This document shows positions 19,907-35,990 of a stretch of DNA of 64,000 nt, one piece after another. Numbering within the stretch: the first letter of the stretch is position 1; each line of letters begins with the position of its first letter. The notes below the pieces were generated by a model. That model was given only the letters and a program-made list of their open reading frames with translations, searched no databases and had not been told where the DNA came from. This stretch comes from Pleomorphomonas sp. (GTDB taxonomy: Bacteria; Pseudomonadota; Alphaproteobacteria; Rhizobiales; Pleomorphomonadaceae): positions 62,001-126,000 of the forward strand of contig JARKNW010000165.1 in assembly GCA_029976075.1 (NCBI GenBank), written 5' to 3'. Position numbers and translations under genes: made by a program.

Positions 19907-19914
19907 GGCAGGCC

Positions 19915-21237: not shown

Positions 21238-21238
21238 C

Positions 21239-22153
21239 ATGACGGACGCCGCCATTCTGTCCATCGACGGGCTGACCATCCGCTTCGGCGCGGTGACGGC
21301 GGTCGACGATGTCAGCCTTTCCGTGGCGTCCGGCGAGCGGGTGGCGCTGCTCGGCCACAACGGTGCCGGCAAGTCGACCCTTTTCAAGACCGTTCTCGGC
21401 TTCCTGAAGCCAGCCGCCGGCCATCTCTCGATTGCTGGCGCCGCGCCTGGATCGAACGCCGCGCGCCAGGCCGTCAGTTATCTGCCCGAGCAGGTGGTTT
21501 TTCCGAAAGTGCTGACCGGGGCGGAAGTCCTCGCCCATTTTGCTCGCCTGAAAGGCGTGTCGCCAAAGACGGCGCTGCCGCTCCTTGAGACAGTCGGCAT
21601 CGCCGACGCAGCCGATCGTACGGTCGGAACCTACTCCAAGGGCATGCGCCAGCGTCTCGGGCTTGCCCAGGCACTGATCGGATCGCCGCGTCTCCTGCTG
21701 CTCGACGAGCCTACGTCTGGCCTAGACCCTGTTTCGCGGCGTGAGTTCTATGATGTTCTCGAGGCATCGGCCCGGGCCGGCACGGCCGTTCTTCTGTCGT
21801 CGCACTCGCTCTCGGAAATCGAAAATCGCATCGACCGCATCGCCATCCTGACCAGGGGGAGGCTGCGTGCCGAGGGATCGCTCGCCGACCTGTCGCGCCG
21901 GGCCGGCCTGCCGATCCGCATTCGCGTCGAGGCGGCCGAAGGTCGGGTCGAAGCCGTTCACGCCCATCTCGGCGGCGAACGGTTCAATGGTCGTTCCGTG
22001 GTGATCACCTGCCGTGCCGAGGAAAAGGTCGGCGCGCTCGCCCGCCTCGCCGAACTCGGGTCCGACGTATCCGACATCGATATCGCCTTGCCGGATCTCG
22101 ATGATGTTTACCGCCATTATTCTGCGGCAAGTGTTCAGGGAGCCGTGCAATGA
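21239..22153 (+). CDS. nosF: NosF, ABC ATPase for CuZ assembly
   Basis: This is a 304-residue cytoplasmic ATPase. Walker A is GHNGAGKST at about residues 39-47, the signature is YSKGMRQRLGLAQ at about 131, and Walker B is LLLLDEPTSGLDP. The D-loop and switch His (SSHSLSE) are intact. It pairs with NosY, which it overlaps by ATGA, and drives conformational change in NosD for sulfur or copper delivery. It begins one base after the nosD stop. Confidence 0.95.
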   Translation: MTDAAILSIDGLTIRFGAVTAVDDVSLSVASGERVALLGHNGAGKSTLFKTVLGFLKPAAGHLSIAGAAPGSNAARQAVSYLPEQVVFPKVLTGAEVLAHFARLKGVSPKTALPLLETVGIADAADRTVGTYSKGMRQRLGLAQALIGSPRLLLLDEPTSGLDPVSRREFYDVLEASARAGTAVLLSSHSLSEIENRIDRIAILTRGRLRAEGSLADLSRRAGLPIRIRVEAAEGRVEAVHAHLGGERFNGRSVVITCRAEEKVGALARLAELGSDVSDIDIALPDLDDVYRHYSAASVQGAVQ

Positions 22154-22986
22154 ACGGCATCGACCGCATGGCGGCTGTGACCGCCACCGAGTTTCGCCTC
22201 GCCTTTCGCAATCGATGGGTCTTGCTGTCGACATTGGCCTTCACGTTGTTCGCGCTGGCACTCGCATTTCTTGGCTCGGGACCGAGTGGTGCGCTCAAGG
22301 CGGATGCGCTGACGCTGACCGCGGCGAGCCTCGCTACCCTCACCGTCTACCTGGTACCGCTGATGGCGTTGCTCGTTTCCTATGACAGCATTGCCGGCGA
22401 AATCGAGCGCGGTACGCTGGCCCTGGTTCTGGCAACGCCACTGAGGCGCGGCGAACTGGTCATGGCGAAATTTCTTGGCCATCTTGCCGTGCTGGCATTG
22501 GCCATTGCCGTGGGTTACGGCATAGCCGGTGCGGTAATCGCCGGCGTTCATGGTGCCGACACGCCTGGTTTTCTTGCCTGGGCGCGCCTCCTCAGCACGG
22601 CCATACTGCTCGGAGCGGTCTTCATAGCCCTGGGAATGGCGCTGTCCGGTTTGCCACGTCAAACCGGCACCGCCGCCGCGCTGGCCATTGGCGCCTGGCT
22701 GATATTGGTGGTGCTTTACGACCTGGCTCTTCTCGGAGCCGTCATCGTCGACCAGGGCGGCGCTTTCACCAAGACGGTGTTTCCGGGGCTGGTCCTCGCC
22801 AACCCCGGCGACGCGTTCCGGCTCTACAATCTCGCGCTGATCGAATCGAACGCGCCGGTCGCAGGCCTTGACGGCCTAGCCCATACCCTTCCCTTCCCGG
22901 TCTCCAGTGCGCTCGGCGTGCTCCTTCTCTGGCTGGTCGCAAGCCTCGCCGTCGCCTGGACCCTCATCCGGAGAATCCGTCCATGA
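22150..22986 (+). CDS. nosY: NosY, ABC permease for CuZ assembly
   Basis: This 278-residue protein has about six membrane helices and the ABC-2 pattern of the NosY family, including YDSIAGEIERGTLALVLATPLRRGELVMAKFLGHL near residues 77-111. The large C-terminal periplasmic part seen in some exporters is absent, as usual for NosY. Overlaps with nosF (ATGA) and nosL (ATGA) imply translational coupling. It forms the membrane part of the NosDFY complex. Confidence 0.94.
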   Translation: MNGIDRMAAVTATEFRLAFRNRWVLLSTLAFTLFALALAFLGSGPSGALKADALTLTAASLATLTVYLVPLMALLVSYDSIAGEIERGTLALVLATPLRRGELVMAKFLGHLAVLALAIAVGYGIAGAVIAGVHGADTPGFLAWARLLSTAILLGAVFIALGMALSGLPRQTGTAAALAIGAWLILVVLYDLALLGAVIVDQGGAFTKTVFPGLVLANPGDAFRLYNLALIESNAPVAGLDGLAHTLPFPVSSALGVLLLWLVASLAVAWTLIRRIRP

Positions 22987-23525
22987 TGATCAACCGCATC
23001 CTGTTCGCCTTGGTTATCTCCACCGCGCTGGCCCTGCCACTTGCCGCCTGCAAGGAGGAAGCGGCGGTCAAGCCCGCCGCTGTGACGATGACCGACGAGG
23101 CGCTTGGCTATTACTGCCAGATGTATCTCGCCGATCACGGTGGCCCCAAGGCGCAGATCCATGAGAAGGGCCAGGACCATCCCCTTTGGTTCTCGCAGGT
23201 GAGCGATGCGGTGACCTACCTGCGCGGTGGCGAGAAGCGGGGAGATATCACCGCCGTCTACGTCTCGGACATGGAGAAGGCACCGAACTGGGCCGAGCCC
23301 GGCCGTGACAACTGGATCGATGCCGACGCGGCGGTGTTCGTGATTGGCAGCCGACAGGCCGGTGCCATGGGCATGCCCGAGGCCATTCCCTTCGGCAGTC
23401 GCAAGGCGGCCGATGATTTCGCGGCGCGCGAGGGCGGGGTGATCGTCAAGCTCGCGGAGATTCCCGACAAGTATCTAGGCCCGGCCAATGCCGAGCCCAA
23501 CAGTCATTCCGACATGCAGATGTGA
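22983..23525 (+). CDS. nosL: NosL, copper chaperone lipoprotein
   Basis: This 180-residue protein starts with a lipoprotein signal ending in the lipobox LAAC, so Cys at about residue 23 would be acylated and anchored in the outer membrane. The NosL copper-binding region is visible as CQMYLADHGGPKAQIHEKG, with Cys, Met and nearby His. NosL supplies Cu(I) to apo-NosZ through NosD/NosFY. It overlaps nosY by ATGA and lies seven bases before nosX. Confidence 0.95.
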   Translation: MMINRILFALVISTALALPLAACKEEAAVKPAAVTMTDEALGYYCQMYLADHGGPKAQIHEKGQDHPLWFSQVSDAVTYLRGGEKRGDITAVYVSDMEKAPNWAEPGRDNWIDADAAVFVIGSRQAGAMGMPEAIPFGSRKAADDFAAREGGVIVKLAEIPDKYLGPANAEPNSHSDMQM

Positions 23526-23532
23526 GGCCAAC

Positions 23533-24495
23533 ATGGCAGGTTTCCTCGCTCGGCCGATCGCTCGGCGCCGTTTCATTCTCATCGGCGCGGCGCTCGCCGC
23601 CGTGGCTTTTGCTCCCGCTGCGCTCGCCGTGGCGCCCGTTCGCCGTTGGTCCGGCTCTGCGCTCGGTGCTCACGCTTCGATCGAACTTGTCGGTGGTGAT
23701 GCGGCCTTCGCCGAGGCCACCTTCACGGCCGTCGAGCAGGAGATCGCCCGCCTTGAGGCACTCTTCAGCCTCTATCGCACCGATAGCGCGCTATCCCGCC
23801 TGAATGCCACTGGTCGCCTCGATGCGCCGGAGGCCGACTTCCTGCGTCTGCTGGCCTTGGTAAGGAGTGCGCATTCCGAAACCGGAGGCCTGTTCGATCC
23901 GACGGTACAGCCGTTGTTCGTCGCCTATGCCACCCATTATGCCAGCGGGCGAACAGATCCGCTTCCTGCCGAGGCGCTTGCCGACGGGTTGAAGCGGGTT
24001 GGTTTCGATAAGGTCGTCTTCGATGAAGATGCCGTGCGCTTTTCACAGCCGGGTATGGCGATGACGCTAAACGGCGTTGCACAAGGCTACATCACCGATC
24101 GCGTCGCTGATCTTCTGAAAGCACGGGGCTTCGCCAACGTTCTGCTCGACATTGGGGAGATCAGGGCCCTCGGCGGCGGTCGCGATAATCAGGGCTGGAA
24201 GGTTGGGCTCGCAGCCGGTCCGAACGGCGATGCGCTGGCGGGGACGCTGCGCCTCAGGGATCGGGCCGTTGCCACGTCGATGATGGATGGCACCGTCATC
24301 GATCCTGCCGGTCTCGTCGGCCATATCCTGCATCCCGGAAAAGGCGCGATTGCCTCCGTCTTCTCGGCCGTCAGCGTTGTGGCGCCGGAAGCCGCGCTCG
24401 CCGATGCCTTGTCGACAGCGGCTGTTCTGATGGCTCCGAACGAACTCGCAAGGCTTGATCGTGCCGGCGTCGAGGTTCACGCGACGCCGGTCTGA
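23533..24495 (+). CDS. nosX: NosX, ApbE-family FAD:protein FMN transferase
   Basis: The ATG at 23533 follows the nosL stop by seven bases; the frame open from 23488 overlaps nosL. The 320-residue protein has a twin-arginine-like signal (ARRRFILIGAALAA), so it is periplasmic. ApbE landmarks are LFSLYRTDSALSRLN, GVAQGYITDRVADLLK and VLLDIGEIRALGG, with the magnesium-site region near PEAALADALSTAA. It transfers FMN to the Thr of the SGAT motif in NosR. A nosX at the end of the operon is typical of alphaproteobacterial denitrifiers. Confidence 0.94.
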   Translation: MAGFLARPIARRRFILIGAALAAVAFAPAALAVAPVRRWSGSALGAHASIELVGGDAAFAEATFTAVEQEIARLEALFSLYRTDSALSRLNATGRLDAPEADFLRLLALVRSAHSETGGLFDPTVQPLFVAYATHYASGRTDPLPAEALADGLKRVGFDKVVFDEDAVRFSQPGMAMTLNGVAQGYITDRVADLLKARGFANVLLDIGEIRALGGGRDNQGWKVGLAAGPNGDALAGTLRLRDRAVATSMMDGTVIDPAGLVGHILHPGKGAIASVFSAVSVVAPEAALADALSTAAVLMAPNELARLDRAGVEVHATPV

Positions 24496-24505
24496 CGCGG
24501 AGACC

Positions 24506-25216
24506 TCAAGCAGCCGGCGCGACCAGTCCTCCGCAGCGAAGTTCGGCATCGGACACGTCCTGCCGGCCGTAAACCTTGAACATTCCGAACACATTCTGCA
24601 TTTCGGTGTCGTCGAGAATCACCGGCGTTCCCACGGCAAGCGTCCGCCAGTACTGGGCAGCGATGGTCTCGACCTCGACAAGCAGCGCGTAGGCCTTCTT
24701 GAGGTTCGAGCCCAGCACGATCACGCCGTGGTTGGCGAGCAGGCAGGCGAGGCGGCCTTCCAGAGCCTTGAGCGCGTGGTCGGAGAGTGCCTGCGAACCA
24801 AAGGTGGCATACTGCGCACAACGAATATTCTCGCCACCGGCAGCTGCCACCATGTAATGGACTGCCGGAATATCGCGACGCAGGCAGGAGATGACCGTCG
24901 AGAACATCGAGTGGGTGTGAATTACCGTGTCTATATCGGGGCGATGCAGCAGGATGTCGCGATGAAAACGCCATTCGCTGGTCGGCCGACAGGGACCATA
25001 ATAGGTACCATCGAACGCCATCTCGACGATCTGATCCTCGGTCATGCCTGCATAGGGAATGCCCGTGGGGGTTACCAGAAAGCGCCCCTCGCCGATGCGA
25101 ACGCTGACGTTGCCCGAGGTGCCTTGGTTGACGCCGGACGCGTTCATTTCGCGACAGGTGGCGATGATCTCGGTCCGCAGGGCGAGATGGGAGAGGGCGG
25201 AAAGGCTGGCAGGCAT
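24506..25216 (-). CDS. Class II aldolase (L-fuculose-phosphate/5-deoxyribulose-phosphate aldolase type)
   Basis: The start at 25216 has GAGGA nine bases upstream; 14 in-frame codons before it look untranslated. The 236-residue protein shows the zinc site: HTHS at about residues 93-96 and the later His in LLANHGV. GNVSVR near the N-terminus binds phosphate, and SEWRFH contains the catalytic Glu. The family cleaves ketose-1-phosphates to DHAP and an aldehyde. The gene is divergent from a SorC-type regulator and near an mtnA-like gene. That points to 5-deoxyribulose-1-phosphate or 5-methylthioribulose-1-phosphate as substrate, though fuculose-1-phosphate cannot be excluded. A ten-base gap separates it from the convergent nosX. 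Confidence 0.85.
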   Translation of the reverse strand: MPASLSALSHLALRTEIIATCREMNASGVNQGTSGNVSVRIGEGRFLVTPTGIPYAGMTEDQIVEMAFDGTYYGPCRPTSEWRFHRDILLHRPDIDTVIHTHSMFSTVISCLRRDIPAVHYMVAAAGGENIRCAQYATFGSQALSDHALKALEGRLACLLANHGVIVLGSNLKKAYALLVEVETIAAQYWRTLAVGTPVILDDTEMQNVFGMFKVYGRQDVSDAELRCGGLVAPAA

Positions 25217-25304
25217 TCTGGTGTCCTCGTTGATGGAGCGATATAGCGTGTTCGACACGCAAGACGAGCAATGGCACTTGGCGCGGTTAGGTGCTTATGT
25301 TAAC

Positions 25305-25325
25305 TGACGTTGTCAATTGTCGATC
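25305..25325. promoter_or_regulatory. Candidate SorC-family operator between the aldolase and regulator genes
   Basis: TGAC-GTT-GTCA (25305-25315) is a small inverted repeat within the word TTGTCAATTGTCGATC (25310-25325). A near copy, TTGTCAAGATCGATT, lies upstream of the transporter operon at 28038-28052. The shared word at the two promoters of one putative pathway suggests a common regulator, most simply the SorC protein encoded beside it. Confidence 0.4.
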
Positions 25326-25363
25326 TGAAGCGACGCGCTTTGGACGATGGGATTGGGAAGATC

Positions 25364-26386
25364 ATGGCGCTACGCTCGAGGATGAAGGACAAGGCTGACC
25401 GGCCGGGGGCCGTCGATGGGGATAACCGGACGCCGTTGCCGCGACCGGGCGAGTACCTCGCCGATCCGCTCCTGTGGGCATCCTGGCTCTATCATCACGA
25501 CGAGATGACGCAGAGCCAGATCGCCGACCTGATGGGTGTTTCGCGCGCGACGGTGGTGAACTACCTCCAGCAGGCGCGTGACCTGCATTACGTCAAGGTG
25601 GTGGTGCGGCCCGAGCTTCTGAACTCGATCGACCTTGCCCAGCAGCTCAAGCAGGCCTTCGGTCTGACCGAATGCATGGTCATTCCCTTCGACGGTGGCG
25701 TGCGGCCGCCGAGTGAGCGTATCGGTCGCGCAGGCGCCCAGTATCTCGATCAGATTCTGATGAATGGTGACGTTCTGGGTGTCGCCTGGGGCCGTACGGT
25801 GCTGTCGCTGGCGGAAAATCTGCCGGAAAAAGCCATGCCGGATAGCTGTGTCGTGCAGGTCATCGGCAGTCAGCGATCCGCCTACGATGGGTTCACGGCG
25901 GAAGAATGTGTTGCCTTCATCGCCCGGCGGCTGCACGCCCGTTCGATCAGTCTGCACGCGCCGGCGGCATTGTCGAATGCGGCGCTGCGCGATGCGCTGA
26001 TGCGCGAGCCGACCATTCAGGAACAGTTCGCCCGCATCCGTTCCTGCAACAAGCTGTTGTTTGGCGTCTGTACGGTTAAGGCCAATAGCCTGGTATTCGC
26101 CTCGGGGCTGATCTCCGTCGACGAGAGCAAGTATTACATCGCCAACGGCGCCGTCGGCGTCATTGCCGGCCGCTTCTACGACATCGATGGCAACTGGCTG
26201 CGCGGCACCATGGATGACCGCATGATCGGTATGACGCTCGACGATGTGCGCGGCGTGCCGACCCGCATCGCGGCGGCGGGCGGCCCGGACAAGACCGACG
26301 CCGTTCTCGGCGCCTTGCGTGGCGGTTACATTACCGCGCTGATTACCGACGAACCGACTGCTCGCAATATTCTTGGGCGACTCTAG
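25364..26386 (+). CDS. SorC/LsrR-family sugar-responsive transcriptional regulator
   Basis: The ATG at 25364 is preferred (weak GGGAAG upstream); a TTG at 25310 would add 18 residues without a ribosome site and would cover a likely operator. The 340-residue protein has an N-terminal helix-turn-helix, DEMTQSQIADLMGVSRATVVNYLQQAR, then a SorC sugar-phosphate effector domain (GVAWGRTVLSLAENL, GFTAEECVAFIARRL, GAVGVIAGRFYDIDG). Regulators of this class, including LsrR and SorC, are usually released by a phosphorylated sugar. It is divergent from the aldolase gene and convergent to the mtnA-like gene, so it most likely controls this salvage locus. Confidence 0.88.
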   Translation: MALRSRMKDKADRPGAVDGDNRTPLPRPGEYLADPLLWASWLYHHDEMTQSQIADLMGVSRATVVNYLQQARDLHYVKVVVRPELLNSIDLAQQLKQAFGLTECMVIPFDGGVRPPSERIGRAGAQYLDQILMNGDVLGVAWGRTVLSLAENLPEKAMPDSCVVQVIGSQRSAYDGFTAEECVAFIARRLHARSISLHAPAALSNAALRDALMREPTIQEQFARIRSCNKLLFGVCTVKANSLVFASGLISVDESKYYIANGAVGVIAGRFYDIDGNWLRGTMDDRMIGMTLDDVRGVPTRIAAAGGPDKTDAVLGALRGGYITALITDEPTARNILGRL

Positions 26387-26425
26387 GTTAGTTTGAGGGG
26401 TGGGTGACCTTTGACCGGCGCGGAA

Positions 26426-26457
26426 CGAAAAAGGCGCCGGCTGGGAGGAGCCGGCGC
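26426..26457 (-). terminator. Rho-independent terminator of the mtnA-like gene
   Basis: On the minus strand, GCGCCGGCT and AGCCGGCGC form a perfect nine-base stem (26434-26457) around a six-base loop, followed by CTTTTTCG. It lies 49 bases after the mtnA-like stop. On the plus strand the hairpin also follows the regulator gene but lacks a U-run. Confidence 0.85.
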
Positions 26458-26505
26458 ATGCCCCCGCGCCGGATCGGGTGGCCGATGCTGGGCAGGGGCG
26501 GGTTT

Positions 26506-27606
26506 TCATTTGGCTATCTGCTCCGGATAGAGCTTGAGGAGGCCTTCGCGGCTGGCGGCAGTGATGCCGCGTTCGGTGATGAGGCCGGTCACCAGACGGG
26601 CCGGTGTCACGTCGAAGCCGTAGTTGAGTGCCGGGCTCCCCATGGGCAGGATGTCGACCGTCTCGAGCCGGCTGTCGGCGGTGCGGCCGGTGATGTGACT
26701 GAGCTCGCGGGCGTCACGCTCCTCGATCGGGATCTCGCGAATGCCATCTTCCAACGTCCAATCGATGGTGGTGAACGGCAGCCCGACGTAGAAGGGCACG
26801 CCGTTGTCACGGGCGGCGAGTGCTTTCAGGTAGGTACCGATCTTGTTGCAGACGTCGCCGGTCGCCGTGGTGCGGTCTGTGCCGACGATCACAAGATCGA
26901 CCAGCCCATGCTGCATCAGATGCCCCCCCAGGTTGTCGGCGATCACGGTGTGATCGACGCCGTGCTGACCGAGTTCGAAGGCCGTGAGGCTGGCACCCTG
27001 GTTACGGGGCCGTGTCTCGTCGACCCACACATGAACAGGAATACCCGCCTCGAAGGCCATGTAGATGGGGGCGAGGGCTGTGCCCCAGTCGATGCAGGCG
27101 AGCCAGCCGGCGTTGCAGTGGGTGAGCACATTGAGACGCGAAGGCTTGCCCTTCTTCTCCCAGAGGTCGCGGATGATCGAGAAGCCATGCCGGCCGATGG
27201 CCTTGCAGGTCTCGACGTCCTCGTCGCAGATCTCGGCGGCACGGCGATAGGCGAGACCCATGCGTTCGGATCGTGCGACCTTGAGCAGGCGGCCCTTGAG
27301 ATCGTCGAGGCCCCAGCGCAGATTGACGGCTGTGGGGCGAGTGGCGAGCAACGCCGCATAGGCCTGCTCGAGGTTCTCGTTGGAAGAGTCCTCGCGCATG
27401 GCGAGCGCCATGCCATAAGCGCCCGTGGCGCCGATAAGAGGCGCGCCTCGCACCATCATGTCTCGAATGGCCAGTGCCGCATCCTGCCAGGTTCGCAGCG
27501 TCCTTGTCGCGACCTCGAAAGGCAGTTTGGTCTGGTCGATGATCTCGACCCCCCAGCTGTCCTCAGCCACCCAGATCGTTCGCGTGGATTTGCCGTAGAT
27601 CTTCAT
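26506..27606 (-). CDS. MtnA-like 5-methylthioribose-1-phosphate/5-deoxyribose-1-phosphate isomerase
   Basis: This 366-residue protein belongs to the MtnA/eIF2B-related family. [13 protein letters not shown] near residues 52-64 binds the phosphate sugar. The catalytic Cys sits in THCNAGWLA at about residue 160, and the catalytic Asp in [18 protein letters not shown] at about 239. [18 protein letters not shown] is also typical. MtnA enzymes convert MTR-1-phosphate to the 1-phosphoketose and, where tested, also 5-deoxyribose-1-phosphate. The Asp motif differs from the usual GADR(I/V)..NGD wording, so this may be a subfamily. GAGG lies seven bases before the ATG. No other methionine-salvage gene (mtnB, C, D) is in the window, which fits a DHAP-forming shunt instead. 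Confidence 0.88.
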
Positions 27607-28485
27607 AAATACCTCAGGTCACCGTCGCACCCTTCGGCGCGCCGGGTAGTCCGGTCGTCACCGGCGGGAGATCGGGAGCCATCTGCAAGCAGCAAACTAG
27701 CAGCGGCTGCAACGACCGTTGCAGCCCCAATACCGACAAACAGAGCGCAATCAACTGCAAGGCACCCAAAGGGGTGACCTTGAACTCCTCCAGTCAGCAT
27801 GTACGTCGTGCCGACATGGCTTTCATGCCGCGGCGTACCCGCCCGGGAGGCTTCCGCTTCCGAAAGACAGGTCAGCTAGGTGCCGGTGGGCACCTGGTCG
27901 CGGACCGATGGTCGGTGACCGGAATGCCCGTCATAGCTTTTTTCATTCCTCGCTCCTCAGCCCCCACCCCGGCAATCTGCAGTTTCCGAATGCTGGCAGG
28001 AGCCCCTTGTTGTAAAAACTGTCCCCGATTTATTCATTTGTCAAGATCGATTGACATTTGCCATTCTTATGGCTAGGTATGTCGTCATCGGGTCTGGAGG
28101 GACCCCCTGCCAAGTACCGTGGAGGCGGTTCCGGCATGACAGAACCAATGGCGAAGGTGAACGGCGCCGGCGACCAGGTCCGAGCAGTCCGGCAGCATGT
28201 GTGCGGTCATTGGGTTCATCCGCGACCGTCAACACCGTAAGGGCCAGCCATCCTGACTTCAGCCAAGGTTGGCCGACCCGAGCGTTTGGGCCGACTACCT
28301 GATGGATGCTTGGTGCCGAGGCAAGGCCTCGGCAGGTGGATGTTGTCTTGCCCTGAGGGCGCTGAGTTGAATTTTCGTGGCCCTACCCTTTGGCGGGTCG
28401 GGTTCGGAGGGCAGGGGCCGGCAAACGACCTGGCGGCAAACGCGTTTGGGGGTCGGCTCGATATTTTCGGTTAGGGAGAGGCGCG
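27607..28485. other. Long hairpin-rich intergenic region between the mtnA-like gene and the ABC operon
   Basis: No convincing gene is seen in 879 bases; the frames present have mixed third-position composition unlike neighbouring genes. Several perfect stems occur. GGCTGCAAC/GTTGCAGCC is at 27705-27726, AGGTGCC/GGCACCT at 27878-27895, and TGCCGAGGC/GCCTCGGCA at 28314-28334. A TGAC..GTCA stem at 27916-27933 is followed by six T at 27938-27943. One operator-like repeat lies at 28039-28056. A 65-codon minus-strand frame ending at 27603 overlaps the mtnA-like start as ATGA and encodes one hydrophobic segment, but its codon use is not gene-like. Confidence 0.6.
28039..28056 (+). promoter_or_regulatory. 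Inverted repeat and possible -35 of the sugar ABC operon
   Basis: TGTCAA-N6-TTGACA is a perfect six-base inverted repeat. The right arm TTGACA is a consensus -35, with a mediocre TAGGTA 17 bases later (28074-28079). A start near 28086 would leave a leader of about 400 bases before the permease GTG. The word TTGTCAA..TCGAT is shared with the aldolase/regulator intergenic region. Confidence 0.45.
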
Positions 28486-29469
28486 GTGGATCGCCAACTG
28501 AATTTTCTCGTTGCAGTCAATGCGCTCGTGCTGGTCGTTGCCATTGCGATCGCCGGCATGGACTTCGTCAGCGTTTACAACATCCAGTCGATGGCGGTGC
28601 AGGTCCCCGAACTTGGGCTGCTGGCCATCGGCGTCACGTTGACCATGATCTCCGGCAATGGTGGTATCGACCTCTCTGGCATTGCGGTCGCCAATCTGGC
28701 CGGTATCGTCGCCGCGCTCCTGTTGCCGCTCTGGGTTTCGGCTGACGATAACCCCATGACCTATGTCTTCGTCTTCGCCGCCGTCTGTCTGGTGGTGGGG
28801 CTGTTGTGCGGTCTGATCAACGGGTTCCTGGTGTCGCGTGCCGCGCTGACACCGATCATCGCAACGCTCGGTACGTCGCTTGCCTACACCGGCCTGTCGG
28901 TCGTGTTGACCAACGGCTCCGGTGTTCGTCTGGGCTACATCGAGCCGCTCGACAACTTCGGGCACATGCCGATCCTGGGTGTGCCTCTCTGCTTTGCCGT
29001 GTTCATCATTCTTGCCGTGATCATCGGCGGTGCGTTGCGCTTCGCTCCGTTCGGCATGCGTTTGTACATGCTCGGCAGCAATGCCAAGGCGGCGCGCTTC
29101 GCAGGGTTCAATCAGTTCAGGCTGCTGATGGTAACCTACACGATCTCGAGCCTGCTCGCGTCTGTTGCCGGCTTCATCATCGCCGCCCGCATCTCCAGCG
29201 TGAAGTGGGACTATGGCACATCCTACGTGCTGATCGCCATTCTGATCGCCGTCATGGCCGGCGTACGACCTGCTGGTGGTTACGGCAAGATCACATGCGT
29301 CGTTCTGTCGGCGGTGGCGCTGCAGATGCTGTCCAGCATGTTCAATTTCCTCAATATCTCGAACTTCTTCCGAGACTTTGCTTGGGGCTTGTTGCTGCTG
29401 ATCTTTCTTTGGGTTTCTGAATTCGACATCCGGGCTTTGCTCACACCACAGGCGAAGCCACGCGGTTGA
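28486..29469 (+). CDS. Sugar ABC transporter permease 1 (RbsC/LsrC/RhaP type)
   Basis: The GTG at 28486 has GGGAGAG five bases upstream; the frame open from 28390 would start in non-coding sequence. The 327-residue protein has eight to ten membrane helices with the CUT2 permease pattern, including LLAIGVTLTMISGNGGIDLS near residues 44-63, ATLGTSLAYTGL and LGSNAKAARFAGF. It shares little with the second permease at 32367, as in Lsr and Rha systems that use two different permeases. It opens the transporter operon permease-binding protein-ATPase-permease-kinase. Confidence 0.9.
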   Translation: MDRQLNFLVAVNALVLVVAIAIAGMDFVSVYNIQSMAVQVPELGLLAIGVTLTMISGNGGIDLSGIAVANLAGIVAALLLPLWVSADDNPMTYVFVFAAVCLVVGLLCGLINGFLVSRAALTPIIATLGTSLAYTGLSVVLTNGSGVRLGYIEPLDNFGHMPILGVPLCFAVFIILAVIIGGALRFAPFGMRLYMLGSNAKAARFAGFNQFRLLMVTYTISSLLASVAGFIIAARISSVKWDYGTSYVLIAILIAVMAGVRPAGGYGKITCVVLSAVALQMLSSMFNFLNISNFFRDFAWGLLLLIFLWVSEFDIRALLTPQAKPRG

Positions 29470-29543
29470 GCAAGGTTCGGCGCGATCACCCTCTCGTGCT
29501 CGTTATCAAAAAAGAGGGTCCTTAGGAGAGGAAGGAAACTAAC

Positions 29544-30545
29544 ATGGCCGTATGGAACAAACTGGCGCTTGGTGCCCTGATGCTCGGCACTGCTTTCGGT
29601 TCGGGCAGTGCTCTCGCGGCCGACCAGACGATTACTACCGTCGTCAAGCTGGCCGGCGAGACCTGGTTCACCCGCATGGAGCAGGGCGTCAAGGAGTTTG
29701 GCGAGAAGACACCGGGTGTCGTCACCAGTGAAATCGGACCAGGCAAGGCCGACGCCGCCCAGCAGGAACGTCTGATCGAGGATCTGATCGCCAAGAAGGT
29801 CGACGCGATCGCTGTCGTGCCGTTCGATCCGCCGATGCTCGAAGGCGTCCTCAAGCGCGCCATGGATCGCGGCATCAAGGTGATGACCCACGAGGCCGAC
29901 AACCTGAAGAACACCATGGTCGACATGGAAGCGTTCGACAACGCTGCCTTCGGGGCCCATTTCAACGAACAGTTGGCCTCCTGCATGGGCCAGAAGGGCA
30001 CCTGGACGACATTCGTCGGTTCGCTCGGCAGTCTTACCCACGTTCAGTGGGCCGATGCCTCGGCCGCCAACGCCGAGAAGAAGTATCCCGGCATGAAGTT
30101 GGTGTCGCCGAAGAACGAGTCGTTCAACGACGCCAACACCGCCTACAACAAGACCAAGGAACTGCTCAAGAAGTACCCGGACCTGAAGGGGTTCGAAGGC
30201 GGTTCCGCGGTCGATGTGATCGGCATTGGTCGTGCCGTCGAAGAGGCCGGCCTGATCGGCAAGGTTTGCGTCTATGGCATCGGCATGCCCAAGGATACCA
30301 GCCGCTGGTTGCAGAGTGGTGCCGTCAACGGCATCAGTCTTTGGGATCCCAAGGACGCCGGCTTCGTCATGAACAAGATCGCCAAGATGCTGGTCGACGG
30401 GGTTGAGTTCAAGGACGGCATGGACCTCGGTGTTCCCGGCTACACCAACATGAAGCTCAAGAAGGGCCCGGGCAAGGGCATCATCCTGACCGGACAGGCC
30501 TGGATCGACGTCAACAAGGACAATCTCGACAAGTACGCCTTCTAA
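29544..30545 (+). CDS. Periplasmic sugar-binding protein (LsrB/RhaS-like, CUT2)
   Basis: This 333-residue protein has a Sec signal peptide (ending SALAAD) and an AGGAGAGG sequence upstream. The mature part follows the periplasmic binding protein family 1 pattern: VVKLAGETWFTRMEQGVKEFGEK, QQERLIEDLIAKKVDAIAVVPFDPP and TKELLKKYPDLKGFEGGSAVDVIGIGRAVEEAGL. The layout is closest to LsrB/RhaS proteins that bind AI-2, rhamnose or other deoxy sugars. A 5-deoxypentose or methylthioribose ligand is inferred from the neighbouring enzymes. Several strong hairpins follow the stop codon. Confidence 0.88.
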   Translation: MAVWNKLALGALMLGTAFGSGSALAADQTITTVVKLAGETWFTRMEQGVKEFGEKTPGVVTSEIGPGKADAAQQERLIEDLIAKKVDAIAVVPFDPPMLEGVLKRAMDRGIKVMTHEADNLKNTMVDMEAFDNAAFGAHFNEQLASCMGQKGTWTTFVGSLGSLTHVQWADASAANAEKKYPGMKLVSPKNESFNDANTAYNKTKELLKKYPDLKGFEGGSAVDVIGIGRAVEEAGLIGKVCVYGIGMPKDTSRWLQSGAVNGISLWDPKDAGFVMNKIAKMLVDGVEFKDGMDLGVPGYTNMKLKKGPGKGIILTGQAWIDVNKDNLDKYAF

Positions 30546-30580
30546 GGAGGCGCACGTCGCCGCGAGCAAGCTGGGGTTCA

Positions 30581-30715
30581 CCATCCGTGATGGTCCATCC
30601 CGGATGTTGGCGGCGACAGCAACGGGAGCCAATCCCGCTGCAAACGGATTGGCTCTCGACGACTCCTCGCAAGGAGCACCTTCGAACCTCGCGGATATGC
30701 GATTTCCGTGAGGGT
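30581..30715 (+). other. Cluster of four intercistronic mRNA hairpins after the binding-protein gene
   Basis: Four stems lie between the binding-protein stop and the ATPase start. ACCATC/GATGGT is at 30581-30595 and GAGCCAATCC/GGATTGGCTC, a perfect ten-base stem, at 30626-30655. CTCCT/AGGAG is at 30663-30676, and CCTCGCGGA/TCCGTGAGG with one G-U pair at 30687-30715. None has a U-run, so they more likely protect the upstream mRNA from 3' decay than terminate. This would favour binding protein over ATPase. Confidence 0.6.
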
Positions 30716-30792
30716 ATCTGGTTCGCCAATGGCCAAGCGTCGGCGGCCGCCGCCAACTGAACATTTCGGAGCCGGTTTCCCCGGGCGTTTGA

Positions 30793-32370
30793 ATGGACAG
30801 CAGCAATTCGTCCCCAATATCCCCACCGACGGTCCCAGGTAGCCCTCCGTTTCTTGAGCTGCGTGGCATCCACAAGCGCTTTGCGGGTGTACATGCCCTG
30901 CGTGGTGTCAGCACGTCGATCGAAGCCGGACAGATCTACCATCTGATGGGCGAAAACGGCTGCGGCAAGAGCACCCTCATCAAGATCATATCTGGCGCCC
31001 AGCCGGCCGATGAGGGGAGCATTCTCATTGCAGGCACGGAAACCTTGTCACTGTCGCCGATCGGCGCGCTGTCGGCAGGTATCGAAACAGTCTACCAGGA
31101 CCTGTCATTGCTCCCCAACCTCTCGGTTGCCGAGAATATTTCGCTGACTCAACAACTGGTCGAATCGAACGGTCGACTGGCTTGGCGGATCAACCGCGAG
31201 CAGCTGATAGCCACGGCGGTCAAGGCGCTCGGCGCGGTCAATCTGCCGACCGATTCAAAATTCTGGTCCCTCCCCATCGAGGAACTGCCAATCGCCACCC
31301 GGCAACTGGTGGCCATTGCTCGCGCCATCGCCACCGAAGCCAAACTGGTGATAATGGACGAGCCGACCTCGGCTCTGACCAAGCGAGAGATCGACAATCT
31401 GATCGGCGTTGTTGACCGGTTGCGCGCCGGTGGCGTTGCGGTCCTGTTCGTCACCCACAAGCTCGATGAATCGAAGTCGATCGGCGGCCGCTTCATCATC
31501 ATGCGTGACGGTCAGAAGGTGATGGAAGGTGACATCAGGGATCATTCCAAGAGTGAACTGAGTTATTGGATGACCGGACGGCAACTCGATGTCGCCCGAT
31601 ATCGCAGGGCTGAGCACGGTCATGGCGATCTGCTCGAGGTCAAGAACCTCGGTCGATCACGCGCCTTCGGCAACGTCAACTTCTCACTGGGACACGGCGA
31701 GATCCTCGGTATCACCGGCCTGCTCGACTCCGGACGCAACGAGCTTGCCCGAGCACTCGTCGGCATCACCCCGGCCGAGAGTGGCACGCTTACGATCGAT
31801 GGGCAGACCGTTACTCTCAAGCGGCCGATCGACGCCATCGATGCAGGTATCGGCTATGTACCGGAGGATCGGCTTTCTGAAGGCCTGTTCCTGGAAAAGC
31901 CGATCCGCTCCAACATCATTGTCGAAATTCTCGATCGTATCAAAAATCGTTGGGGTGCCATCGACGATAAGCGCAGCCGGACGATGGCCGAGGATATCGC
32001 CCGCGAGCTGCAGATCGTCGCCGCCAACCTTGAAAGCCCGGTACAGTCATTGTCGGGTGGCAATCAGCAGCGCGTCCTCATTGGTCGTGGTCTGATGATA
32101 AAGCCGAAGTTGTTCGTGTTGCACGGCCCCACCGTGGGTGTGGACGTCGGCTCAAAGGACACCATTTTCCGCATTATTCAGAAACTCTCGGCCGACGGCA
32201 TGGGCGTGATCATCATCAGCGACGATCTGCCGGAGCTGCTGCAAAACTGTGATCGCATCATGGTGATGCGCAAGGGAACGATCGCGGAAGTGTTCGACGC
32301 CGAGAATGTCGACGAAGACACCCTCTATCGCGCGCTCGTCACCGACAAATCATCAAGGATGCCATCATGA
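30793..32370 (+). CDS. Sugar ABC transporter ATPase with two domains (RbsA/LsrA type)
   Basis: This 525-residue protein has two tandem ATPase domains. Domain 1 has Walker A GENGCGKST and Walker B VIMDEPTSALT, both canonical. Domain 2 (from about residue 275) has the usual degenerate P-loop of this family (TGLLDSGRNEL) and an intact signature LSGGNQQRVLIGRGL. Its Walker B region reads LFVLHGPTVGVDVG, so the expected Asp-Glu pair is replaced by His444-Gly445. RbsA-type proteins often hydrolyse ATP at only one site, so domain 1 may suffice. The stop overlaps the second permease start as ATGA. Confidence 0.9.
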   Translation: MDSSNSSPISPPTVPGSPPFLELRGIHKRFAGVHALRGVSTSIEAGQIYHLMGENGCGKSTLIKIISGAQPADEGSILIAGTETLSLSPIGALSAGIETVYQDLSLLPNLSVAENISLTQQLVESNGRLAWRINREQLIATAVKALGAVNLPTDSKFWSLPIEELPIATRQLVAIARAIATEAKLVIMDEPTSALTKREIDNLIGVVDRLRAGGVAVLFVTHKLDESKSIGGRFIIMRDGQKVMEGDIRDHSKSELSYWMTGRQLDVARYRRAEHGHGDLLEVKNLGRSRAFGNVNFSLGHGEILGITGLLDSGRNELARALVGITPAESGTLTIDGQTVTLKRPIDAIDAGIGYVPEDRLSEGLFLEKPIRSNIIVEILDRIKNRWGAIDDKRSRTMAEDIARELQIVAANLESPVQSLSGGNQQRVLIGRGLMIKPKLFVLHGPTVGVDVGSKDTIFRIIQKLSADGMGVIIISDDLPELLQNCDRIMVMRKGTIAEVFDAENVDEDTLYRALVTDKSSRMPS

Positions 32371-33395
32371 GCGACTTCATCTGGAGCGGCTCCGCCGCCG
32401 ACGATTCGACCTCGCCGAAACAGATCTTCGCCTGGCTCGTTCGCCACCCCCCGGTCTTCACTCTGATTCTGATCATCCTGGTGAGCGTTGTCATCGGCGC
32501 CATCTCGCCGGAGTTCTGGCAGATCTCGAACATATTCGACATGGCCAGGGCCTCGGTGGTCACTGGCATGTTCGGGCTGGGTTTCCTGGTGATCCTGGCC
32601 GCCGGTGGCATAGACATGTCCTTCACGGCCATCGCCGGACTGATGATGTACTGGATCACCATTACTGTGGCTGCCTATGCACCATGGTTGCCGATGCCGA
32701 TCATTCTGATCGTGGCGGCCGTCGGTGGCATGATCCTCGGTATCGGCAATGGCCTGCTGGTCCATTATCTCAACGCGCCGGCCATGATCGTCACCATCGG
32801 CACGCAATACGTCATCCGTGGCTTCCTGCTCACCTTCATCGGCACTGAACTGTTCGTCAATGTGCCGGCACCGATCGAAGCCTTCGGCAAGTACGAACTT
32901 TGGCGGGTCGAGACTGACACGGGGTCGATCACCATCCTGCCGGCCTACGTGCTGGTACTGGTCGTTGCCGCCCTCGTCACCTGGTGGATTCTCAAGCGGA
33001 CCCTGATGGGTCGAGCCATTTTTGCCGTTGGGGGCAGCTCGGTGATCGCTGAACGTCTTGGCTACAATCTGCGCAAGGTGCAAGTGTTTGTGTTCGCTTA
33101 TGCCGGTCTGTTGGCGGGCGTCGCCGGCATGCTGCATGTGGCCAGCAATCGCCTTGCCAATCCGTTTGACCTGGCCGGCTCGGAACTGGGCGTCATCGCC
33201 GCCGTGGTACTTGGCGGCGCTCGCATCACCGGAGGTTCCGGTACGGTGATCGGCACCATCCTTGGCGTGATCCTGGTGACGCTGGTCAACAACGTGCTGA
33301 TCCTCGCCGGTATTCCGAGCTCGTGGCAGACCTTCGTCGTGGGCTGTTTCATCATCTTGGCCGGCACGGTGTTCGCTGCGCGCAAGACCAGCTGA
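32367..33395 (+). CDS. Sugar ABC transporter permease 2 (RbsC/LsrD/RhaQ type)
   Basis: This 342-residue protein has eight to ten membrane helices with CUT2 features: VTGMFGLGFLVILAAGGIDMS near residues 65-85, NAPAMIVTIGTQYVIRG, AVGGSSVIAERLGYN and VIAAVVLGGARITGGSG, the last forming the ATPase-coupling loop. It pairs with the permease at 28486 to make a heterodimeric channel. ATGA overlap with the ATPase gene indicates translational coupling. A 163-base gap without a gene separates it from the kinase. Confidence 0.9.
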   Translation: MSDFIWSGSAADDSTSPKQIFAWLVRHPPVFTLILIILVSVVIGAISPEFWQISNIFDMARASVVTGMFGLGFLVILAAGGIDMSFTAIAGLMMYWITITVAAYAPWLPMPIILIVAAVGGMILGIGNGLLVHYLNAPAMIVTIGTQYVIRGFLLTFIGTELFVNVPAPIEAFGKYELWRVETDTGSITILPAYVLVLVVAALVTWWILKRTLMGRAIFAVGGSSVIAERLGYNLRKVQVFVFAYAGLLAGVAGMLHVASNRLANPFDLAGSELGVIAAVVLGGARITGGSGTVIGTILGVILVTLVNNVLILAGIPSSWQTFVVGCFIILAGTVFAARKTS

Positions 33396-33558
33396 TAGAC
33401 GACTTCACCAAGGAAATTCCCGGTCCGTCGTTGGCGGATCGGGCCCAAGCCCCGAGGTGGGATGGAGCCCGGGGCGCAAGGACACAACCGACGGCAGACG
33501 ATACTGCGAGCCATCAAATGGACTCGGTCGCACCGCGGTTTGGCATGGAGGTTTAGTG

Positions 33559-34509
33559 ATGGCTTTTGATGTCAGCGTCGTCGGACTTTACATCCTCGAC
33601 ATTCTCGGGCGTCCGGTCGATGGCATTCCGCCTGGCGGACAGCTGCGGTTCATTGACGAAATCCGCCTGACCGTTGCCGGGACGGCCGGTGGCACGGCGG
33701 TTGATTGTGCCAAGCTCGGTCTTGCCACCAAGGCCGTCGGTGCCGTCGGTGATGATGAAAAGGCCGATTTCGTGCTGATGACCCTGAAGGGCTTCGGTGT
33801 CGACGTCGCGTCGATGCGCCGGCTTGTCGGGGTCTCGACGTCGGCGACCATCCTCAATGTTCGCCCAAATGGCGACCGGCCGGCCCTTCATCGGCGCGGT
33901 GCTTCCGATGAGTTTACGCTGATGGCCGAGGAATATGCCGGTGTGCTCGACGCCAAGTTCATTCATGTTGGCGGCATGCCGTTACTTGCCAAGTTCGATG
34001 GAGCACCCACTTCGGCTTTCCTCAAGGCGGCAAAGGCAGCCGGCCGCACCACGACATTCGACTTGCTGTCGGCAACTGCCGCCACAACGGAGGTCCTCAA
34101 GCCGTCCTTGCCATACGTCGACTACTTTGTACCGAGCATCGAGGATGCTGCGGTCATGAGCGGATACTCCAGTCCCGAGGACGCTGCCCGCTTCTTCCGC
34201 GATCTCGGTGCCCGCAACTGCTTGCTCACGCGGGGTGGCGACGGTTGCTTGGTGGCGACGCCTGATCGCGTGTTCCGGCTGCCTGCCTTCGACATCGACG
34301 TCAAGGATACGACCGGCTGTGGCGATGCGTTCACTGCTGGGCTTATTGCTGGTCTCAACCATGGTTGGGACATCGAGAAATCGGCTCGCTTCGCCTCGGC
34401 TTGCGGTGGTCTTGTGGCCACGGGGCTTGGCTCCGACGCAGGTATCGTCGATTTCGCAAAAACCGAAAAGCTCATGAATACCGGCCGCACCCGGCCGATC
34501 TCGCTCTAG
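33559..34509 (+). CDS. PfkB-family (ribokinase-like) sugar kinase
   Basis: The ATG at 33559 has GGAGG seven bases upstream; the longer frame from 33457 lacks a ribosome site. The 316-residue protein has the PfkB N-terminal GGTAVDCAKLG segment and the C-terminal signature DTTGCGDAFTAGLIAGL with the catalytic Asp of G-x-G-D. The substrate is a sugar or nucleoside hydroxyl. Its position at the end of the transporter operon suggests it phosphorylates the imported sugar. If that sugar is 5-deoxyribose or methylthioribose, phosphorylation must be at C1, whereas ribokinase itself acts on O5. The fit with the pathway is therefore tentative. Confidence 0.85.
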   Translation: MAFDVSVVGLYILDILGRPVDGIPPGGQLRFIDEIRLTVAGTAGGTAVDCAKLGLATKAVGAVGDDEKADFVLMTLKGFGVDVASMRRLVGVSTSATILNVRPNGDRPALHRRGASDEFTLMAEEYAGVLDAKFIHVGGMPLLAKFDGAPTSAFLKAAKAAGRTTTFDLLSATAATTEVLKPSLPYVDYFVPSIEDAAVMSGYSSPEDAARFFRDLGARNCLLTRGGDGCLVATPDRVFRLPAFDIDVKDTTGCGDAFTAGLIAGLNHGWDIEKSARFASACGGLVATGLGSDAGIVDFAKTEKLMNTGRTRPISL

Positions 34510-34540: not shown

Positions 34541-34646
34541 CAACCGATGGAAGCTGCCACCGAAGTGTAGATTGGCTCCCATAAATAAAACGTAAGATCG
34601 CTCCTCCGCTGATCGCTGGCCCGAGCCCGGGCCGGTTGCTTGCGAG

Positions 34647-34681
34647 AAAGCCGACATTCCCCTCGGGAGTGCCGGCTTTTT
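34647..34681 (+). terminator. Rho-independent terminator of the sugar ABC-kinase operon
   Basis: A 15-pair stem with one mismatch and one G-U pair (AAAGCCG... to ...CGGCTTT) closes on a CTC loop and runs into TTTTT at 34677-34681. It lies about 140 bases after the kinase stop and before the metal-efflux pair. Confidence 0.88.
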
Positions 34682-34743
34682 CATTGGAGGCGAACGAACT
34701 ACTGTGGGCGTGCACATGCCACTTGCCAGCCGTCTTCATTAGT

Positions 34744-34766: not shown

Positions 34767-35039
34767 ATGCACACTACGACAAACAAACAGCCACTGCTCG
34801 CCCGCGTTCGCCGCATCGCCGGCCAGGTAGCAGCCATCGAGAAAGCCCTTGAAGACGAGGCGGACTGCGCGGCCGTCCTGCACCAGGTGGCAGGGGTCCG
34901 TGGCGCGGTTCTGGGCTTGATGGACGAACTGATCGAAGGGCATCTGCGCGAGCACGTCGCCCGTCCAGGCATTGATGATGAGGCGCGATCGGCTGCGGCT
35001 GACGAGTTGATGGCCGCCATCCGCCGTTACGGCAAATGA
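34767..35039 (+). CDS. CsoR/RcnR-family metal-sensing repressor (DmeR-like)
   Basis: This 90-residue all-helical protein of the DUF156 family has RVRRIAGQVAAIEKALEDEADCAAVLHQVAGVRGAVLGLMDELIEGH. It carries the expected metal-site Cys (about residue 34) and His residues (about 39, 59 and 63) on the second helix and its neighbours. The N-terminal His and Cys spacing fits Ni/Co-sensing RcnR/DmeR better than Cu-sensing CsoR. It is cotranscribed with a CDF exporter nine bases downstream, like dmeRF of rhizobia. The operator touches the start codon, so the mRNA may be leaderless or use the G tract as ribosome site. Confidence 0.85.
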   Translation: MHTTTNKQPLLARVRRIAGQVAAIEKALEDEADCAAVLHQVAGVRGAVLGLMDELIEGHLREHVARPGIDDEARSAAADELMAAIRRYGK

Positions 35040-35048
35040 GGACGGGAA

Positions 35049-35990
35049 ATGCAGCAATCAGACATCGACCCGCATGGCCACGGCCACGTTTTCCTCGGTC
35101 ATGACCATGACCGAAATACGCGCCGCGTCCTGTGGGTGGTGGCCCTGACGCTTTGCATGATGATTGGTGAGATCGTTGCCGGCCTGTTGTTCAACTCCAT
35201 GGCCCTGCTTGCCGATGGCTTTCACATGGCGACCCATGCCGGCGCACTGACGGTGGCAGCGATCGCCTATCTTCTGGCGCGTCGCTATGCCGGCGAGCGA
35301 CGGTTCACCTTCGGCACGGGCAAGATAGGCGATCTCGCCGGCTTTGCCTCGGCGCTGGTGCTTGGACTTGTGGCGCTCGGCATCGGCATCGAATCGCTTG
35401 TCCGCTTCATCAATCCGCAGCCGGTCGCCTTTTTCGAGGCGACGCTGATCGCCGTGCTCGGCCTTCTGGTCAACCTCTTGAGCGCCGCGTTGCTTGGTCC
35501 GGATCACCATCATCACGACCACGCGCATGACCACCACGATCATGAGACAGCCGATCACGGTCACGACAACAACTTGCGCTCAGCCTACGTTCATGTGCTG
35601 GCAGACGCCCTGACTTCCGTGCTGGCCATCGCGGCCCTGCTTGGCGGCCGCTTCCTCGGCTGGACATGGCTCGACCCTGCCATGGGACTGGTCGGCGCTG
35701 CCGTTATCGCGGTCTGGTCGTGGTCCCTGATGCGGGCCGCGTCGTCGGTCTTGCTCGACATGACCGACCCGCATGTCGAGACGGAGATCCGCGAGCTGGT
35801 TGCCGAAAAAGATGGCGCCCGGATCGTTGACCTTCACCTGTGGCGTGTCGGCCCGACCGGTCATGCCGCCATCGTCTCGGTCGTCGGTGACGACGCAGAC
35901 GACATCCGTCGCCGCCTCCGGCCGGTGCACGAAATCGTCCACCTGACCGTCGAGGCGAGGGGAGCCGTCTCTCAGCCGCCCGCCGCGTAG
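35049..35990 (+). CDS. dmeF: Cation diffusion facilitator, DmeF-type Ni/Co exporter
   Basis: This 313-residue protein has six membrane helices and an N-terminal His cluster (DPHGHGHVFLGHDHD). Helix 2 carries ADGFHMATHA and helix 5 HVLADALTS, the intramembrane metal sites. The cytosolic loop between helices 4 and 5 is very His/Asp-rich (DHHHHDHAHDHHDHE). FHMATH is characteristic of the DmeF subgroup, which exports Co2+ and Ni2+ in exchange for protons. GGACGGGAA lies before the ATG. Its 3' end overlaps the end of the convergent ABC exporter by 19 bases. Confidence 0.88.
   Translation: MQQSDIDPHGHGHVFLGHDHDRNTRRVLWVVALTLCMMIGEIVAGLLFNSMALLADGFHMATHAGALTVAAIAYLLARRYAGERRFTFGTGKIGDLAGFASALVLGLVALGIGIESLVRFINPQPVAFFEATLIAVLGLLVNLLSAALLGPDHHHHDHAHDHHDHETADHGHDNNLRSAYVHVLADALTSVLAIAALLGGRFLGWTWLDPAMGLVGAAVIAVWSWSLMRAASSVLLDMTDPHVETEIRELVAEKDGARIVDLHLWRVGPTGHAAIVSVVGDDADDIRRRLRPVHEIVHLTVEARGAVSQPPAA

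Follow-up and report, generated by a model that had tools for sequence, protein, structure and literature searches.

The window analysed here, 64,000 nucleotides from a draft genome of Pleomorphomonas sp., carries a putative sugar uptake and catabolic locus of eight genes between positions 24506 and 34509 (Table 1). It is part of a 132-kb contig (C177) in an assembly of 5.36 Mb and 177 contigs, with a completeness of 94.4% and a contamination of 7.9%. An earlier sequence-only reading had described, within 10 kb, a class II aldolase, a SorC/LsrR-type regulator, an MtnA isomerase, a four-gene CUT2 importer and a PfkB kinase, and had taken them together as a locus for the salvage of a 5-modified ribose (5-deoxyribose or methylthioribose) by way of the dihydroxyacetone phosphate (DHAP) shunt. 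All eight genes are present, with the positions and families that it gave. As to function, the part that concerns the aldolase, MtnA and the regulator stands, and comparison with related genomes supports their placement in a DHAP-shunt locus; the assignment of the importer and kinase to 5-deoxyribose or methylthioribose is not supported.

Table 1. Features of the locus, with positions in the window.
Feature	Position	Strand	Evidence or remark
ald, class II (FucA-type) aldolase	24506-25258	-	PF00596, 177 bits
sorC, SorC/DeoR(Bsu)/LsrR-type regulator	25310-26386	+	PF04198, 228.5 bits
mtnA, aldose-1-phosphate isomerase, intact	26506-27606	-	NCBIfam TIGR00512, 399 bits (cut-off 279)
Stretch at the position of mtnK in sister loci	27646-27943		no likeness detected to the five sister loci compared
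Operator-like palindrome, TCATTTGTCAA-N6-TTGACATTTG	28034-28060		one change in the conserved arms
Leader and decayed start of the CUT2-A ATPase gene (atpA)	28061-28210	+	76% DNA identity; relic ATG at 28136
CUT2-B permease 1	28390-29469	+	PF02653; likeness to other cassettes begins at about 28455; 84% to G013
CUT2-B sugar-binding protein	29544-30545	+	PF13407; 91% to G013
CUT2-B double ATPase	30793-32370	+	PF00005, two stretches
CUT2-B permease 2	32367-33395	+	PF02653
PfkB-family sugar kinase	33457-34509 (open reading frame); likely start ATG 33559	+	PF00294; DTTGCGD motif
Terminator-like hairpin 3' of the kinase gene	34655-34671	+	consensus match only; 7 such sites found, 8.2 expected

The aldolase has L-fuculose-phosphate aldolase as its best NCBIfam model (229.9 bits, below the cut-off of 264) and reaches 67.6 bits on the MtnB model, where the cut-off is 137. 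Against the PDB it scores around 198 bits with E. coli FucA and 146 bits with 6btd, which we take to be DrdA; by score it is closer to FucA, which fits either of the substrate readings weighed below, and the enzyme is predicted to split a ketose 1-phosphate into DHAP and an aldehyde. In a tree the aldolases of the genus group (SH-like approximate likelihood ratio test, SH-aLRT, 80) both with those of Cohaesibacter and with aldolases linked to FGGY kinases, and the tree is therefore uninformative on substrate. The regulator falls in the SorC/DeoR(Bsu)/LsrR group on its PF04198 domain and on matches to helix-turn-helix families that are weak and below their cut-offs; its nearest NCBIfam models, DeoR(Bsu) and LsrR, are both below cut-off as well. 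The absence of mtnB, mtnC and mtnD from the locus, also part of the sequence-only reading, was confirmed in that none of the eight proteins reaches the MtnB, MtnC or MtnD models, the rest of the genome not having been searched for them. Known loci for the DHAP shunt or 5-deoxyribose salvage (drdKIA of Bacillus thuringiensis and mtnK-mtnA-ald2 of E. coli ATCC 25922) resemble the window in their MtnA-type isomerase, FucA-type class II aldolase (that of the window being a possible ortholog of Ald2 or DrdA) and linked transporter; the window differs from them in having neither MtnK nor MtnP at the family cut-off, but instead a PfkB kinase and another kind of importer.

The origin of this difference is seen in the related genomes. 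A search for MtnA covered 20 genomes of the family, counting that of the window, and found it in 18, among which are all 13 other genomes of the same genus (hereafter the sisters; 14 genomes of the genus with the window's). In 11 of the 13 the aldolase, sorC and mtnA genes lie in the same order and are 87-95% identical (87-94% for the aldolases), so the arrangement is not due to chance; in the remaining two, G018 and G011, mtnA was found without the aldolase and the regulator in the 18-20 kb fetched. On the left of this triad nosD and apbE are found in all 11 sister loci, as they are in the window (19840-24495; nosD 90%, apbE 82%), and in the sister locus L021 the nos region is, by Pfam, a nitrous oxide reductase cluster. 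All 11 have mtnK after mtnA, together with an importer that we call CUT2-A, CUT2-B being that of the window. The MtnK of L021 scores 514 bits on TIGR01767 (cut-off 275), and MtnK is present in 12 of the 13 sister genomes; so is the CUT2-A binding protein, the only component of that importer searched for genome-wide, at E below 1e-40 (that of G011 at 51% identity). Its best PDB match, with 207 bits, is 4ry8, which we take to be a protein that binds 5-methylthioribose, from a relative of Thermotoga. For the sister transporter a BMP-type nucleoside importer was considered and rejected, as the binding protein belongs to PF13407. The dedicated importer of the sequence-only reading thus has its counterpart in the sister species, and the importer of the window is a different one. 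The genome G007 has a second copy of mtnA (L038:9760-16543), 90% identical to that of the window, along with a binding protein like that of CUT2-A (55%) and another mtnK, which at 386.7 bits exceeds the cut-off.

In the window's own genome there is no match to MtnK at the family cut-off and the CUT2-A binding protein was not found within an E limit of 1e-40. The binding protein that is encoded in the window reaches only 30.9 bits to 4ry8 and can be aligned to CUT2-A over just 69 residues, at 32% identity, which places it outside the 4ry8/CUT2-A kind; its top PDB matches are 5bra, 9i1m and 3d02. The proposal that this importer serves for 5-deoxyribose or methylthioribose is not borne out by these scores.

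It is clear from the DNA between mtnA and the importer genes that the older arrangement once stood at this site. On the side of mtnA the window is sister-like up to 27627-27645. Likeness is found again from 28020 to 28210, with 76% DNA identity to L021 and 73-77% across the sisters, ending at 28210; the counterpart of this segment in the sisters is the intergenic DNA between mtnK and CUT2-A together with the opening codons of atpA, which encodes the CUT2-A ATPase. From the relic ATG the window's frame leaves the ATPase reading after a few codons and runs into a stop. The same segment holds a palindrome that is found, as TCATTTGTCAA-N6-TTGACAATTGA, as a single copy in all 11 sister loci, in the DNA that separates mtnK from CUT2-A; with up to one mismatch it was not seen in any of 28 other loci scanned. 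The window has a single copy in its 64 kb, with one change in the arms; at one mismatch there is none in 20 mononucleotide shuffles. A simple scan gave no promoter-like site at the palindrome, in which we see a candidate operator for the SorC-type regulators that accompany such genes.

The edges of the new segment are equally well marked. Between 28455 and 34511, a span of 6.1 kb, the window shares 80% identity with a cassette of importer and kinase genes in G013, the only one of the 13 sisters with an ortholog (91%) of the CUT2-B binding protein, where the cassette lies on a contig other than that of the shunt locus. On the right, sister-like sequence is regained from 34585-34743, depending on which of the five sisters is compared. 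Just beyond, at 34767-35990, there are genes for a CsoR-like regulator and for a His-rich, DmeF-like cation efflux protein (names read from the sequence); since the CsoR-like and DmeF-like genes are also found in 5 of the 11 fetched sister stretches, they lie outside the insert. The window's ABC exporter is on this side in 6 of the 11; in the remaining stretches the exporter, or the CsoR-like and DmeF-like genes, were not found within the DNA fetched.

Comparison of the loci therefore shows an exchange in place: the ancestor had ald-sorC-mtnA-mtnK and a CUT2-A importer, and mtnK and CUT2-A were lost from the window's locus, where the CUT2-B/PfkB cassette took their place. The opposite polarity was considered because a quick tree places the SorC clade of the genus together with the SorC that accompanies the Cohaesibacter cassette (SH-aLRT 97, with six of nine Cohaesibacter genomes in the tree; eight rows, S. 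meliloti among them, are long-branched and the placement of S. meliloti is unsure). An ancestral window order is ruled out by the palindrome and the atpA relic, whose retention means that the sister order is ancestral and that of the window derived. The synonymous divergence (dS) from G013 is 0.60-1.23 for the cassette genes and 0.58-0.90 for the backbone genes; as the former is similar to or above the latter, the cassette is not a very recent copy of that in G013. The exchange itself is well shown, and the substrate of the new module is inferred.

The cassette was followed through 397 sampled genomes of the order, taking those with a PfkB at least 80% identical and judging the neighbourhood within the 15-20 kb fetched around each; the scan recognised genes of the query set only and further pathway genes there are unlisted. 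Besides the window's, 14 genomes have such a kinase, and the full importer lies alongside in all 14. They are from the genus Cohaesibacter, Rhodobium, Ancalomicrobiaceae and G013, with binding protein and kinase 78-91% identical and the genes in the same order as in the window. Unlike the window, these loci have no mtnA (0/14) and usually have RpiB (13/14) and DhaK (12/14); a FucA-like aldolase is found in 9 of the 14. In the same nine genomes, all of the genus Cohaesibacter, there is also a related SorC (61-66% identical), and in 9/9 the SorC, the cassette and the aldolase make one cluster. In G013, which keeps a standard mtnK locus, the cassette lies within a cluster of DhaKL, RpiB and transketolase genes, and its RpiB reaches 232.6 bits on the D-erythrulose-4-phosphate isomerase model, slightly below the cut-off of 240. 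The sequence-only reading had itself held that homologous loci which always pair these genes with a different sugar pathway would speak against it; the consistent lack of mtnA beside the cassette comes near to that.

The kinase has E. coli YdjH as its closest solved relative (3h49, 156 bits in a profile search, the next being 103), and can be classed as YdjH-like on this relationship and on the aldolase gene in its locus. YdjH phosphorylates C1 of 2-ketoses, and its partner YdjI belongs to another class II aldolase family. The pairing of kinase and aldolase is alike in the two systems; the E. coli cluster has MFS transporters, unlike the CUT2 importer of the window. For the YdjH/YdjI pair a preference for long sugars that end in a carboxylate has been reported (PMC9602453). 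Around relatives of the window's PfkB (at least 46% identity), an aldolase of the FucA or RhaD kind was found in 23 of 40 stretches, in L193 some 8 kb away, and in annotated or profiled examples the kinase has as partners either genes for a class II aldolase and an SDR or one for a bifunctional aldolase/dehydrogenase. Among the 48 loci matched by the window's binding protein, the fetched stretch has a PfkB relative in 13 and DhaK in 11 (8 with both); DhaKL acts on short ketones. On a Klebsiella plasmid (L153:98-12118) a 47% PfkB relative and a CUT2 importer are enclosed by genes with the annotations acireductone synthase/dioxygenase and methylthioribulose 1-phosphate dehydratase.

The window locus now probably handles a sugar other than the methylthioribose-like ones. 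The reading that we favour, and to which we would give nearly an even chance on this comparative evidence, is that a DHAP-shunt locus has had its entry module exchanged in place and now feeds a ketose 1-phosphate to the old aldolase. CUT2-B would import another sugar, most probably a 2-ketose or a compound easily converted to one; PfkB, like YdjH, would phosphorylate it at C1; the FucA-type aldolase would split the product; SorC would sense a phosphorylated intermediate and control the operon through the palindrome at 28034; and MtnA would be bypassed, or serve in a minor side supply. We prefer this reading because the triad and its nos/apbE flank are shared with 11 of the 13 sisters, which hold mtnK and CUT2-A there; because MtnK and the CUT2-A binding protein, present in 12 of 13 sisters, were not found in the window's genome; because palindrome, leader and atpA relic are kept and the cassette has its edges at 28455 and 34511; and because of the gap between 207 and 30.9 bits to 4ry8. 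The nearness of PfkB to YdjH with the frequent FucA/RhaD aldolases argues for it too, as do the Cohaesibacter clusters, whose SorC groups with the window's clade, and the strong constraint on aldolase and regulator given below.

Several observations weigh against it. The FucA-like aldolase was not found in the fetched stretch of 5 of the 14 cassette genomes, the nearest, G013, among them, and no aldolase of the FucA or RhaD kind was found in 17 of the 40 stretches around PfkB relatives. In the three loci checked (3/3), more distant relatives of the binding protein adjoin FGGY kinases, so that ketose import is not implied for the whole binding-protein family. Furthermore, MtnA is intact, with a ratio of nonsynonymous to synonymous divergence (dN/dS) of 0.071 against the sisters, and an enzyme that is bypassed is not long needed; the swap may, however, be recent.

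Alternatively, the replacement may be non-orthologous, with PfkB taking over from MtnK as the 1-kinase for 5-deoxyribose or methylthioribose and CUT2-B the import, leaving the roles of MtnA and the aldolase unchanged; this amounts to the sequence-only reading with the kinase exchanged, and we consider it rather unlikely. It would explain why palindrome, regulator, MtnA and aldolase are all kept and why the swap is located just where the old kinase and importer stood. It would also provide a source of aldose 1-phosphate, which is wanted in a genome without MtnK and in a genus where MtnP is over the cut-off in none of 14 genomes. MtnN was tried as a source of the sugar and rejected, being over the cut-off in G018 only among these 14. 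In its stricter form, in which a PfkB of the ribokinase superfamily replaced the APH-type MtnK as 5-deoxypentose 1-kinase together with a second, unrelated CUT2 importer, in one operon and by in-place cassette exchange, the proposal is unlikely; if true, it would add a third entry route to the DHAP shunt. The lack of mtnA in the DNA fetched around the cassette from all 14 other genomes and a binding protein unlike the 4ry8 type both speak against replacement of this sort.

The selection seen on the retained genes bears on the same question. Pairwise dN/dS between the window and the sisters, and among the sisters, is 0.071 and 0.060 for mtnA, 0.066 and 0.081 for the aldolase, and 0.054 and 0.079 for sorC. 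For sorC 8/11 and 31/55 pairs were kept and for nosD 10/11 and 52/55, and the exporter was excluded for partial and paralogous matches. Aldolase and regulator thus remain strongly constrained, with no decay. At otherwise invariant sites the window has 10 private changes in mtnA and 5 in ald and sorC, where the 11 sisters summed have 19 and 35 (Fisher p 0.04); mtnA alone shows mild extra change, without decay, in this one test on one lineage, which is a point against continued use of MtnA as before. Two genomes, G018 (L032) and G006 (L036), retain mtnA without any MtnK or MtnP that passes the family cut-off, and its retention is therefore weak evidence for a kinase that feeds it.

A further alternative, that two unrelated operons merely adjoin, is in our estimate quite unlikely. 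Here the cassette would run a pathway of its own with enzymes coded elsewhere, such as DhaKL, RpiB and transketolase, and ald-sorC-mtnA would be a leftover. In G013, Rhodobium and Ancalomicrobiaceae the cassette does lie among DhaKL and RpiB genes, and four DhaK homologues, the best 65% identical, are found elsewhere in the window's genome. However, the cassette was placed behind the old palindrome and not behind upstream DNA of its own, aldolase and regulator are free of decay, and in Cohaesibacter a related SorC and FucA-like aldolase are part of the cassette cluster. Elsewhere in the window's genome (L060:5489-11890) a paralogue of the CUT2-B importer (52-57%) has DhaK and DhaL directly 3', with no PfkB relative seen in 20 kb. 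That the draft assembly, with its contamination and 177 contigs, joined two strains here is highly improbable: the DNA on either side and the relic within come from one genus and run without a break through a single 132-kb contig, the relic shows decay and not just a cut, and no MtnK or CUT2-A binding protein was found anywhere else in the assembly.

A dedicated importer beside DHAP-shunt genes is already known as a pattern, of which the window is a variant with exchanged importer and kinase. The sequence-only reading had regarded a Lsr/Rha-like transporter for such sugars as new; sugar transporters were noted in 2018 by Beaudoin et al. in four of the 5-deoxyribose clusters that they displayed (PMC6079011), and the E. 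coli DHAP-shunt operon has a permease and a known repressor, MtnR, of the SorC/DeoR type, whose recognition site was still unknown in 2025 (PMC12632272). In the open-licence literature nothing was found on this gene arrangement, this importer, 4ry8 or 5bra/9i1m. On pSymB of S. meliloti a regulator, a CUT2-A-type importer (binding protein 66% identical), mtnK and mtnA form one cluster, which like the sister loci, and unlike the window, has mtnK and CUT2-A; its mtnA is 62% identical to the window's, the regulator just 33%, and no aldolase match was found in 17 kb. The locus amounts to a natural experiment, in which the sisters hold a complete uptake locus of the methylthioribose/5-deoxyribose type and one lineage has swapped importer and kinase while keeping palindrome, regulator, isomerase and aldolase. 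Whether transporter-plus-kinase units act as swappable entry modules, retargeting a conserved DHAP-forming back end, can now be tested directly. On one Spirochaetaceae contig (L117:221-11268) both kinds of importer lie side by side: mtnA-mtnK (479 bits) with a CUT2-A-type ATPase and permease are followed by genes for a D-serine ammonia-lyase, a DeoR regulator, a class II aldolase and the binding protein and ATPase of a CUT2-B-like importer.

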